From Terriglobia bacterium (lineage in GTDB: Bacteria; Acidobacteriota; Terriglobia; Bryobacterales; Bryobacteraceae), in NCBI GenBank assembly GCA_020073345.1, contig JAIQFI010000012.1, positions 62,001-126,000 of the forward strand: a stretch of 64,000 bases of DNA, in the 5' to 3' direction. Position numbers and translations under genes: made by a program. Each line of letters opens with the position of its first letter. Position 1 is the first letter of the stretch. The notes under the pieces were generated by a model that saw only the letters and a program-made list of their open reading frames with translations, did no database searches and was not told the DNA's origin. Below are positions 28,483 to 35,616 of the stretch, piece by piece.

Positions 28483-29733
28483 TTAGTCCAAACGGATTCT
28501 TGGATTCTGATCCTGCGCCGACATGTCGGACAGAATCACCTGATCGTCCACCTTCAACCCTTCCACCACCTCGATGGTATTCACTGAGCTGCGCCCCAGC
28601 TTGACTGTGACGCGCGCAGCTCCCTTACCGTCAGGCTCCAATTTGAACAAGCTCACGGAACTGTCGGGTTGGCCGAACACCGGCCGGCCGATGTAAACGA
28701 CGTCCGCCAGTCGCTCGATTTCGACGGTCCCGTCCACACTGAGGTCGGGTACCGCGCCGCTGGGTAAAGGTCCATCCAGTTTGCAATCCACCGTGCGGGT
28801 TCCGTTGATCACGTTAGGATCTATTCGGACTACGTGCCCCGCGATGATTCCGTTCCGCGTATCGATGGACGCTTTCTGTCCCAGCAGGATATCCTTCGCC
28901 TGAGTTTCGGCGATCTGCAGCTCGGCCTGCAGCGTGGCCTGGGCCACCTTCGCGACAACCGTGCCGGAGGTGACGCGCGTGCCGACCTGCAAGGTCAGCT
29001 CCTGGACCACGCCGTCCGTTCCGGCGCGAATCGTAAGGTCGCCCAGTTGCTGTTTCTTGCGCTCCCAGGTCGCCCGCAACTTGTCGATTTGGACTTTTTG
29101 GGATTCCAATTGTGCGTCGATGGAATCCTTCATGATGTCGAGCTTTTGCTGCTCGGTATGAAAGCGGTTGGTGGCCTGTTCCCAATTGGCCTGGGTGAGT
29201 TTTACGTTCAGCTCGGTTTGAAGCTGCAGCTTGAACAGCTGCTCGTCCTTATCCTTGTTAAGCGAAGCCTGCTTCAAGGCGTTCTCGGCACTGGACACTG
29301 CGGCTTGCTGGTCGAATCTCTGGCTCTGCAGCCGGACCTTCAGGTCGGCATAGGTAGCTTCGGCCTGCTTCATCTGCCACTCCAGATCGTTGGCCGCGAG
29401 CTCCATGTCGGGATTGGTTAATACCATCAAGACGGTGTCGGGTTTCACTTTCTGGCCCGATTTTATCGGAACCTTGATCACCTGGCCGTCCTGCAGACTG
29501 GGGATCACAATGATCTCCTCCGGCGCCAGCTTGCCGAGACCCTTCCTTTCGATCACGATCGGGCCGCGCTTCACTGAATCGATCCACACAGTCGCACGCT
29601 CCACGGTTGGGGCAGCTGGCTCGAGTTTCGATACGCGCCAGCCCGCGGCTCCCAGGGCGGCGACCGTTACGATCCCGTAGATGGTGAACTTTATGCGCTT
29701 TTTTCGCGCGACGCCTTCTCGTTTAATATCCAT
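28483..29733 (-). CDS. HlyD-family periplasmic adaptor protein, second copy
   Basis: A 416-residue adaptor with a transmembrane anchor at about 13-31 (KFTIYGIVTVAALGAAGW), a lipoyl half-site (LGKLAPEEIIVIPSLQDGQVIKVPIKSGQKVKPD), a long coiled-coil hairpin at about 105-235 rich in Gln/Lys/Glu, and a barrel region (TIRAGTDGVVQELTLQVGTRVTSG). The overall plan matches adaptors of ABC exporters. With the ATPase 32 bases downstream it forms a second adaptor-ATPase pair. Confidence 0.87.
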   Translation of the reverse strand: MDIKREGVARKKRIKFTIYGIVTVAALGAAGWRVSKLEPAAPTVERATVWIDSVKRGPIVIERKGLGKLAPEEIIVIPSLQDGQVIKVPIKSGQKVKPDTVLMVLTNPDMELAANDLEWQMKQAEATYADLKVRLQSQRFDQQAAVSSAENALKQASLNKDKDEQLFKLQLQTELNVKLTQANWEQATNRFHTEQQKLDIMKDSIDAQLESQKVQIDKLRATWERKKQQLGDLTIRAGTDGVVQELTLQVGTRVTSGTVVAKVAQATLQAELQIAETQAKDILLGQKASIDTRNGIIAGHVVRIDPNVINGTRTVDCKLDGPLPSGAVPDLSVDGTVEIERLADVVYIGRPVFGQPDSSVSLFKLEPDGKGAARVTVKLGRSSVNTIEVVEGLKVDDQVILSDMSAQDQNPRIRLD

Positions 29734-29928
29734 GGTTTCCTATGTGACGTTCTGTGGAAGCCCGCACGCTTCGGGTCGGCCAGTGACTCATCAGGGCACG
29801 CCTTCTGCCATTCCACGGGCTACAAAAACGCCTGTAGTTACAAAGGTTTATAGCACCGTGAGCGATTGTATCATGCTACTGGCTGTCCGTTCCTGGGACG
29901 GCGCTGTGCGAATCGGAGTGGTTGAAAT

Positions 29929-30004
29929 TGGAGCGGGAGACCGGATTCGAACCGGCGACATCGACCTTGGCAAGGTCGCACTCTACCAGCTGAGTTACTC
30001 CCGC
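29929..30004 (-). tRNA. tRNA-Gly (anticodon GCC)
   Basis: On the minus strand the acceptor stem GCGGGAG pairs with CTCCCGC, followed by T and encoded CCA. The anticodon stem GACCT/AGGTC encloses loop TGCCA (seven-base loop TTGCCAA), giving GCC, which reads GGC. The D arm CTCAGCTGGTAGAG and T arm GGTTCGAATCC are standard. It lies in the interval between the adaptor gene and dnaA. Confidence 0.95.
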
Positions 30005-30084
30005 GCCCGCGGAGGGAAGGACCTCAAAGGACAGCCCTTATTGTCGCGCCAGCTGCCAGGAAAGTCAAATAGGAGGGGCTAATG

Positions 30085-31824: not shown

Positions 31825-32055
31825 TTGTTGTTGACGTCATCCACAACGCGGCTTCCGTATGCTCTGTGACAGCCTGTGAATACCTCCCGCCAGGCGGGTT
31901 TTACGCTTTCCCGACGCGCTCCTTTCCGCACAGCTTCTGATGGTTTTAACTCCTCGGTCTTGCTATAATTTAGAAAGAAATCAAGGTTTCCACAGGTACT
32001 ACGACTACGATTACTCTTACTTGATAGAGATCTAGTCAGAAAAACAACCTCCGCT
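31825..32055 (+). other. oriC: Probable oriC (DnaA boxes and DnaA-trio-like tract)
   Basis: The 231-base dnaA-dnaN gap contains three nine-mers one mismatch from TTWTNCACA: TCATCCACA at 31837-31845, GTATTCACA on the minus strand at 31875-31883 and GTTTCCACA at 31986-31994. Directly after the last box and a GG come triplets at 31997-32020 (TAC TAC GAC TAC GAT TAC, then TCT TAC). This is the order of the bacterial basal unwinding element known from Bacillus subtilis: DnaA box, short GC stretch, then DnaA-trios. An AT-rich flank precedes the dnaN start. Confidence 0.75.
31964..31969 (+). promoter_or_regulatory. Putative -10 element (TATAAT) for dnaN
   Basis: A perfect TATAAT lies 87 bases before the dnaN ATG, within the probable origin. 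No convincing -35 hexamer is seen 17 bases upstream (tggttt). If real, transcription would run through the unwinding region. Confidence 0.4.
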
Positions 32056-33168
32056 ATGGAATTCACCGTCAGTAGGGCTGATCTGGTTCGAGAACTGAAT
32101 CTCTCTCAGGGCGTAGTTGAGAAGAAGACCACAATTCCAATTTTGTCCAACATTCTGTTGGAAGCAGATGGTGATCGCTTACTGCTGACAGCGACGGATC
32201 TGGAGTTGGGAGTCCGGTCTTCGTGTGCCGCGAAGGTCAAGAAAAAGGGCGCGGGCACGATTCCGGCGCGGCGCTTATTGGACTACGTCCGGTTACTGCC
32301 GGAAGGCGATGTTCAGGTCAAGATTCTCGAAAACCAGTGGGCGAGCTTGGTATGCGGACGTTCCAAGACGCGCATTGCTGGCATGTCTCGCGAAAGTTTC
32401 CCGGAGCTGCCCGCGATGCCTGCCGTGCTCGCCGAGATACCGATCGGCGTTCTGGGCGGGATGATTGCGAAAACCATTTTTGCGATTTCGAGTGAAGAGT
32501 CCCGCTTCACGCTCAACGGTGCGCTTTTGGTTCTGAAAAAAGGCAGTATGGCAATGGTTGCTACCGATGGGCACCGCCTTGCGATGGTCGAAAGCTCAGG
32601 CGATCTTCCTGGAGTAACAGGAGCATACCGTGCGCTGTTGCCCCGCAAAGCCATGGCCGAACTCCAGAAGCTCGCCGCGGACGCGGCTCCGGATTCCGTG
32701 CTGCGCTTCGCGGGCGATGAGAATCATCTATTTTTCGAGCTGGGTGGCCGGATGCTGCTCAGCCGCAAGCTTACTGGAAACTTTCCGGACTTCGAGCGTG
32801 TGCTTCCCAAAGAGCATGCACACTCGGTTTCGGTGAATCGCGACGAGTTTCGCGGGGCCATCGAACGTGTGGCGCAATTCTCGGATGAAAGATCCCGGGG
32901 CATCCGCGTGGCGGCCGGCTCGGGCGAGCTCAAGGTTCATTCTTCCGTGTCTGAAACTGGCGAGAGCGAGGATAGCATCGCCGCCGCCTACGACGGACCA
33001 GCGGTCGAGATCGGGTTCAACGCGGAGTATCTCCTGGACTTCCTTCGTGCCGTAGCGACGGAAGAAGTCACGTTCCTGTTCAAGGACGCGCATAGCGCTG
33101 GCGAGCTTCGCCCAGGCGGCGAAAAAGCCGACAACTATCGCTACGTGATCATGCCGATGCGCATCTGA
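32056..33168 (+). CDS. dnaN: DNA polymerase III beta subunit (sliding clamp)
   Basis: A 370-residue clamp made of three similar domains; it encircles DNA and tethers the replicase and repair enzymes. Family hallmarks include TTIPILSNILLEADGDRLLLTATDLELGVR near residue 25, SRESFPELP, the central ESRFTLNGALL...MVATDGHRLAM, and the C-terminal RYVIMPMRI, close to the usual MPM(R/K)L ending. Length is normal. It lies in the conserved order dnaA-oriC-dnaN-gyrB with 36 bases before gyrB. Confidence 0.97.
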   Translation: MEFTVSRADLVRELNLSQGVVEKKTTIPILSNILLEADGDRLLLTATDLELGVRSSCAAKVKKKGAGTIPARRLLDYVRLLPEGDVQVKILENQWASLVCGRSKTRIAGMSRESFPELPAMPAVLAEIPIGVLGGMIAKTIFAISSEESRFTLNGALLVLKKGSMAMVATDGHRLAMVESSGDLPGVTGAYRALLPRKAMAELQKLAADAAPDSVLRFAGDENHLFFELGGRMLLSRKLTGNFPDFERVLPKEHAHSVSVNRDEFRGAIERVAQFSDERSRGIRVAAGSGELKVHSSVSETGESEDSIAAAYDGPAVEIGFNAEYLLDFLRAVATEEVTFLFKDAHSAGELRPGGEKADNYRYVIMPMRI

Positions 33169-33180
33169 GGAGTTTCTTGA

Positions 33181-35616
<2,436 letters not shown>

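Follow-up and report, generated by a model that had tools for sequence, protein, structure and literature searches.

A probable chromosome origin between dnaA and dnaN in a Terriglobia bacterium, with DnaA-trios that appear to use adenine or cytosine as the middle base

Results

The dnaA-dnaN gap and its DnaA boxes

The window analysed here is the whole 64-kb stretch of DNA under study, from a genome of 6.23 Mb in 98 contigs; dnaA, dnaN, and gyrB are consecutive genes in it, all on the plus strand (Table 1). The dnaA ORF begins with GTG, and homology is found only from near residue 34; the real start is probably downstream of the annotated GTG. The gap between dnaA and dnaN (31825-32055) is 231 bp long, with a GC content of 47.6% versus 60.1% for the window. 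An Rfam scan of the window at the gathering threshold returned five tRNAs only and no Rfam family in the gap; a snoRNA match at chance level, located inside dnaN, was discarded. A plus-strand ORF (29681-30082) that shares bases with a tRNA-Gly on the minus strand (29929-30004) is unlikely to be a real gene.

Table 1. Genes and sequence features at the dnaA-dnaN locus (positions in the window)
Feature	Position	Strand	Remarks
dnaA	30412..31824	+	TIGR00362, 541 bits; B. subtilis DnaA chain 8btg, 425 bits
DnaA box TCATCCACA, dnaA-proximal	31837..31845	+	1 mismatch to TTATCCACA
DnaA box GTATTCACA, inverted	31875..31883	-	2 mismatches
Weak box TTCCGCACA	31924..31932	+	3 mismatches
-10-like TATAAT, putative dnaN promoter	31964..31969	+	TGC before it; conserved
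Upstream tandem box position	31978..31986	+	degenerate in window: AAATCAAGG, 5 mismatches
DnaA box GTTTCCACA adjoining the trios (box B)	31986..31994	+	2 mismatches
Spacer GGTA, 4 nt	31995..31998	+	family GNCC
DnaA-trio tract	31999..32022	-	bound strand 3'-GAT GCT GAT GCT AAT GAG AAT GAA-5'; register and exchange tests
AT-rich stretch, trio 1 to dnaN, candidate unwinding region	31999..32055		40.4% GC
dnaN	32056..33168	+	TIGR00663, 284 bits
gyrB	33205..35616	+	NF011501, 1145 bits

The gap holds a cluster of DnaA boxes, as expected of oriC: it has 3 boxes at ≤2 mismatches against 0.34 expected (126.9-kb contig), and only 7 of 2534 sliding windows along the contig are as box-dense, four of those 7 overlapping the gap. 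At ≤1 mismatch there is one box versus 0.02 expected, a number equalled by 53/2534 windows. The first-pass annotation had placed three nonamers at 31837-31845, 31875-31883 (minus strand), and 31986-31994, each one mismatch from consensus; all three lie there, and the count is right for the first, while the other two have 2 mismatches to TTATCCACA and only one when compared with TTWTNCACA.

Relatives support several of these positions. The dnaA-proximal box is TTATCCACA in 5 of the 18 aligned sequences of the genus (L004, L005, L006, L008, and L010), inverted TGTG-type sites lie near the position of the inverted box in the genus alignment, and at the columns of the weak box CACA is conserved family-wide (C 79, A 85, C 85, and A 72%). 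The family consensus has two tandem box positions that share one base; at the upstream one it reads AAATCAACA, with 3 mismatches, and the box is a perfect TTATCCACA in L086, L090, L112, and L125.

Strand and register of the trios

The lower strand is the one bound by DnaA in the basal unwinding system (BUS), and the perfect trio 3'-GAT-5' is seen as 5'-CTA-3' on the other strand (PMC8235120). The published search rule asks for a box with ≤2 mismatches, a spacer of 0-16 nt, and at least three trios with a middle A (PMC8287927). The box beside the tract, GTTTCCACA, is within this limit, as is the 4-nt spacer; for the optional second tandem box, which may have up to 4 mismatches, the window's AAATCAAGG fails. 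On the box strand the tract reads CTA CGA CTA CGA TTA CTC TTA CTT, and alternate trios in the window have cytosine as the middle base of the bound strand. The trios lie opposite the box strand and run away from the box, as BUS polarity demands, a placement that comes from the register in the family and from the order and class loci described below. The only tract in the window that the strict published rule finds is TTACTCTTACTT, from trio 5 at the maximal spacer of 16 nt, and the rule is also passed by 13.7% of 300 shuffled gaps. By itself, the window would be weak evidence for a BUS, and it is the comparison with relatives that, in our view, makes the case convincing.

Family comparison and exchange of A and C

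The comparison set for the window's family (labelled f1) comprises 110 stretches before dnaN, namely 108 dnaA-dnaN gaps plus L104 and L132, in which dnaA lies elsewhere; 90 are distinct. The promoter anchor described below is present in 88 of the 90 (L105 and L132 are without it), and 86 have a box score of at least 7/10, L104 included and L026 and L030 dropped. The two closest relatives are MAGs with DnaN identities of 98 and 97%. The record L058 (CALQCC020000004.1), titled Bordetella parapertussis, has a dnaN 82% identical to that of the window and is probably a mislabelled MAG.

The family consensus is TATAATTTAGAGAGAAATCAACATTTCCACAGNCCCTACGAATACGGTTC. The middle base of trios 1-5 is T or G on the box strand (A or C on the bound strand) in 82, 77, 76, 81, and 79 of the 86 stretches (88-95%), and frames shifted by 1 or 2 nt either way average 22, 35, 25, and 48% in the same stretches. 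At trios 6, 7, and 8 the counts are lower (53, 34, and 55 of 86), so beyond about the fifth trio the pattern is lost. Trio 1 is CTA in 70/86. Within the first five trios, a run of three with A only is found in 32/86 members and a run with A or C in 76/86; the remaining 10 are without any run of three A/C-middle trios.

Changes at these columns were inferred by Fitch parsimony on a FastTree tree of the 86 DnaN proteins. The five middle columns have 71 inferred changes, of which 37 are T/G transversions and 15 transitions, compared with a T/G share of 14/144 at the ten other trio columns (Fisher p 2.5e-11), 96/659 downstream, and 55/354 upstream; these counts carry the caveats of a protein tree, of parsimony with ties resolved one way, and of near-identical members among the 86. 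T/G exchange on the box strand is A/C exchange on the bound strand, and A and C appear to have been traded over many lineages at exactly the trio middle.

Order, class, and phylum

A further 20 loci, drawn from the order and the class and including two of the window's own genus, were compared at sites picked by box score alone (threshold 14/17). Sixteen reach the score, and CTA stands at the fixed offset in 13 of these; L031, L037, L040, and L043 fall below it (L037 and L043 being those of the own genus), and L037 shows CTA despite its low score, giving CTA in 14 of all 20. At the offset CTA is replaced by CAC in L032, CCT in L034, and CTC in L041; by eye, L032 has CTACTACTA nine bases on and L034 has CTACTA one base on. 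Contrary to the A/C rule, trio 2 is CAA (T on the bound strand) in 4 of the 8 members seen of genus g17. The same genus has two adjacent dnaN-like genes (G042, G043, G045, G046, G051, G052, G055, and G056), with 34-41% and 30-36% identity to the window's dnaN.

Across the phylum, 60 loci were sampled, 52 of which have a dnaA tail upstream. A first scan by box alone gave 6/60 sites of at least 15/17 with dnaA upstream, and a looser scan was adopted after that result; the looser box-trio criterion picks out 28/52 gaps on the dnaN-ward strand, with 8.3 expected from shuffles; 24/52 gaps fail it, and its false rate is sizeable (11/52 in reverse). Plain trio tracts (CTA five times) are found in L246, L260, L268, and L299, and L286, from family f50, reads CGA CGA CGA TGA TGA.

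This distant Acidobacteriota family (19 loci, with a dnaN match in 19/20 genomes) has mostly cytosine trios, CGA CGA YGA YGA, and f64, its sister family, has a mixture of CGA and CTA (16 of 17 loci read). Middle G is present at trios 1-5 of f50 in 19, 19, 17, 18, and 12 of 19 loci, where trio 1 in f50 and f64 is fixed by the choice of the TCGAC anchor and the evidence is that of trios 2-5 only. In both families (L305-L341), 17 bp separate TCGACN from a TATAAT-like hexamer downstream (mean 4.2/6 matches); trios 1-2 overlap a possible -35, which trio 2 touches, and trios 3-5 lie in the promoter spacer. Promoter and unwinding element may therefore share bases in f50 and f64, where trios 1-2 may be doubly constrained and their C may be partly promoter-driven.

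The dnaN promoter and leader

The TGC before the -10-like TATAAT makes it what we take to be an extended -10 form. A TATAATTTA-type anchor is found in 88/90 distinct stretches, and in 78 of these 88 it is 22 bp upstream of box B; inside the promoter spacer, an AA pair 16 and 15 bp before TATAAT (31948-31949 in the window) is 96 and 100% conserved in the 88 stretches. A pattern scan of the window found no promoter with a -35 here, where the window has TTGCTATAAT. Since the -10 is only 22 bp before box B, occupation of the -10 by polymerase and of the boxes by DnaA would probably be mutually exclusive. In L026 and L030, both of f1, the TATAATTTAGAG promoter is kept between dnaA and dnaN and the tandem boxes are unrecognisable, possibly reflecting a change of origin. 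Outside the family, no TATAAT-like hexamer was found 18-26 bp before box B in the 17 class loci examined; 12 of the 17 (L032, L033, L038, L039, L042, and L044-L050, five of the twelve being close kin) have TATAAT or TATACT close to where the gap begins, at a nearly constant distance of 154-157 bp upstream of box B.

The dnaN leader of the window contains an imperfect hairpin, GACTA...TAGTC (32003-32037), and in the window and its two closest relatives the leader folds better than shuffles (z -2.3 to -3.5). As a family feature the hairpin was rejected: the mean z is -0.47 versus -0.67 for an upstream control (n = 88), and z is below -2 in 13/88 leaders versus 16/88 controls.

The DnaA pocket

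DnaA was extracted from 67/100 loci plus the window (n = 68), and from 32/36 f50/f64 loci. Asn187, Glu228, and Arg264 are invariant in 68/68, and Asn187 and Glu228 are also kept in 32/32 from f50/f64. At the positions of the B. subtilis pocket (Asn187, Ile190, Ile193, Arg202, and Glu228) the window has N, I, L, Q, and E: three identical residues, one conservative change, and Gln for Arg at 202. Residue 202 makes contact with the first trio base; of the 68 sequences, 57 have His there, 9 (that of the window included) Gln, and 2 Arg. In f50/f64 it is Arg in 32/32, and residue 196 is Lys, Gln, or Arg instead of Asn. The identity of pocket residues is described as not universal, their properties being generally kept (PMC10721633).

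In the same work Asn187 is contacted by the middle base through its amino group. With C in the middle of trio 1, opening in vitro is about as fast as with A in B. subtilis, and slower with G, T, and U; in vivo, colonies grow faster and initiation is more frequent when trios 1-3 carry C than when they carry G or T (PMC10721633). The T/G exchange at the middle columns fits these data. Ten DnaA positions compared in f50/f64 gave no covariation with the middle cytosine, and Asn187 is kept throughout. That C is used as freely as A in the trios suggests that DnaA reads a chemical group, not one letter; the cytosine substitution is known from the B. subtilis experiments, and here evolution appears to make natural use of it.

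Skew, and relatives with separated dnaA and dnaN

Skew was tested in two relatives, KBS 96 (a 6.69-Mb scaffold, 60 samples of 20 kb) and F-183. The GC skew of KBS 96 has no significant split (p 0.073), and its T-A skew splits significantly, with 0/1000 permutations as strong. The best T-A split is at 3.75 Mb for fourfold sites and at 3.60 Mb for all sites, and dnaN is at 3.81 Mb, 0.2 Mb away from the all-site split; an initial sampling at 40 places had put it at 3.85 and 3.35 Mb. In KBS 96, no signal at dnaN is seen in gene strand bias, and counts of GGGNAGGG there give no clear signal. GC skew is thus unusable in KBS 96, and T-A skew favours the dnaA-dnaN neighbourhood.

No skew splits significantly in F-183 (AP025252.1; L132, L205, and L207-L244). 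In this record dnaA and dnaN are 1.2 Mb apart, and the 20-kb samples alternate between about +0.2 and -0.2 GC skew round the whole record, as if it were heavily inverted or mis-oriented in assembly; by eye, nothing BUS-like was found beside its dnaA or dnaN. In L104 (G062:C157) the two genes are on different contigs, the promoter block is kept, and both boxes look decayed. The use of such separated pairs as a natural BUS knock-out was considered and set aside, L104 being a MAG in which a trio-like tract remains and the cases being too few and too unsure.

Discussion

Very probably, oriC and a BUS lie in the gap between dnaA and dnaN, and replication of the chromosome in this soil bacterium probably begins with opening at a start site of known type adjoining dnaA. 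We put a probability of about 0.86 on the whole explanation, in which the gap is the chromosome origin and DnaA is predicted to step from the tandem boxes onto A/C-middle trios and to melt the AT-rich stretch. An origin at this place had been proposed in the first-pass annotation and is supported by the excess of boxes and by a module recognisable in 86/90 stretches; the proposed box and trio element pointing to dnaN also stands, at 31986-32022, once strand and register are corrected. That annotation was without the upstream box position (31978-31986), the -10-like element (31964-31969), and the cytosine in alternate trios.

The position of the element, its polarity and register, its conservation, the T/G exchange, and the residues of the pocket are all shown computationally. 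On the predicted mechanism, DnaA would bind the tandem box positions (31978-31994), and its AAA+ domains would cross the 4-nt spacer and engage the minus strand from 31999. The run of DnaA would head for dnaN, with bases one and two of every trio held in a pocket, and the AT-rich stretch before dnaN would melt for helicase loading. The amino group common to A and C would be the reason why the pocket takes either of them as the second base, and a pocket of such tolerance would allow the family to mix 3'-GAT-5' with 3'-GCT-5' trios. DnaA binding, strand opening, and initiation of replication in the gap are predictions from these comparisons.

Three other readings of the locus were weighed. That the trios are read as TAC on the box strand from 31997, as originally annotated, is hardly credible: GG and the run TAC TAC GAC TAC GAT TAC do follow the last box, nearly identical in the two closest relatives, but the published polarity places trios on the opposite strand, and the register is kept in those two relatives only. 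In the other 15 aligned members of the genus (DnaN identity 77-82%) the TAC reading is lost, and most have CCCTATGAATC or something near it. Box-plus-trio order in close relatives, which had been named as the test of the element, is accordingly absent for TAC, and for the CTA frame it is kept family-wide and beyond. It is also very unlikely that the true origin lies elsewhere and the locus is a decayed or regulatory cluster of DnaA boxes. The weakness of the window's boxes would suit such a cluster, as would the two relatives with dnaA and dnaN on separate stretches, in neither of which inspection by eye showed a BUS directly after dnaA; against it stand the persistence of the module before dnaN across the family and the switch of T-A skew near dnaA-dnaN in KBS 96.

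A further reading, which we regard as improbable, holds that the conserved block is a dnaN promoter with a 5'-leader element, acting in control of transcription or RNA, and that its likeness to boxes and trios is incidental. The -10 is indeed the most conserved part, at a constant distance from box B in most stretches, and it persists where the boxes are lost (L026, L030, and L104); the leaders of the window and its two closest relatives also fold well. However, leader folding across the family is no better than in the upstream control, the gap has no Rfam family at gathering score, and RNA structure fails to explain the T/G exchange, since U and G share no common pairing partner. The order of box, spacer, and CTA is moreover kept in other families, although 17/17 class loci have no TATAAT-like hexamer at the corresponding distance before box B.

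Having preferred an origin with a BUS, we think it somewhat better than an even bet that the DnaA-trio is an amine code and not an adenine code, with natural trios that would be mostly 3'-[G/A][A/C]N-5': the window's family would alternate A and C, and the f50 origin would open mainly at cytosine trios (3'-GCT GCT [G/A]CT [G/A]CT-5'). In B. subtilis, the structure and mutants of 2023 showed C to be nearly as good as the central A, and that work considered it possible that the DnaAs of other species recognise other sequences (PMC10721633). How DnaA chooses its single-stranded site is a live question, which evolution appears to answer here. If the amine code is right, searches for trios need a wider rule: 15% of origins are without a called BUS (PMC8287927), some of these may have one, and some of the origins missed by a strict NAN search may be of the amine-code type. 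The DnaA of f50 with its DNA would then be a natural test of pocket chemistry. Natural cytosine trios were not found in the main texts of the literature searched, nor was a mention of Acidobacteriota together with DnaA-trios, and the search returned no experiments on the origin of this lineage; an unwinding element is here proposed for Acidobacteriota.

Among known systems, oriC2 of Clostridioides difficile is alike in having a printed trio tract, CACCTACTACTATTACTACTATGA, downstream of dnaA; its six central trios all have A on the bound strand, TGA at the end of the printed stretch would be the one C-middle triplet, and unlike here a bipartite origin is proposed (PMC7561715). Helicobacter pylori oriC2 has the same polarity as the window, with trios that adjoin the box (PMC8235120), and unlike the window its sequence as given in PMC10316083 contains no trio with a middle C. 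The closest comparison is the BUS of B. subtilis oriC (DnaA-box 6/7, GC spacer, and DnaA-trios), which like the window's is downstream of dnaA, has a short GC-containing spacer, and has its trios opposite the box strand. The box-strand trios are CTA CTA TTA CTT CTA CTA in B. subtilis (complement of the PMC10316083 sequence) and CTA CGA CTA CGA TTA CTC in the window, where, unlike in B. subtilis, alternate trios have a middle C. In the window's family the boxes are weaker than those of B. subtilis and overlap by one base, whereas the published rule allows ≤3 bp between boxes (PMC8287927), and, again unlike B. subtilis, box B is preceded by a -10 at a distance of 22 bp. At residue 202 of DnaA, B. 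subtilis has Arg, the window Gln, and most relatives His. Its place, polarity, and spacer would make the gap a BUS-type oriC of known kind, with a trio code that would be a variant.
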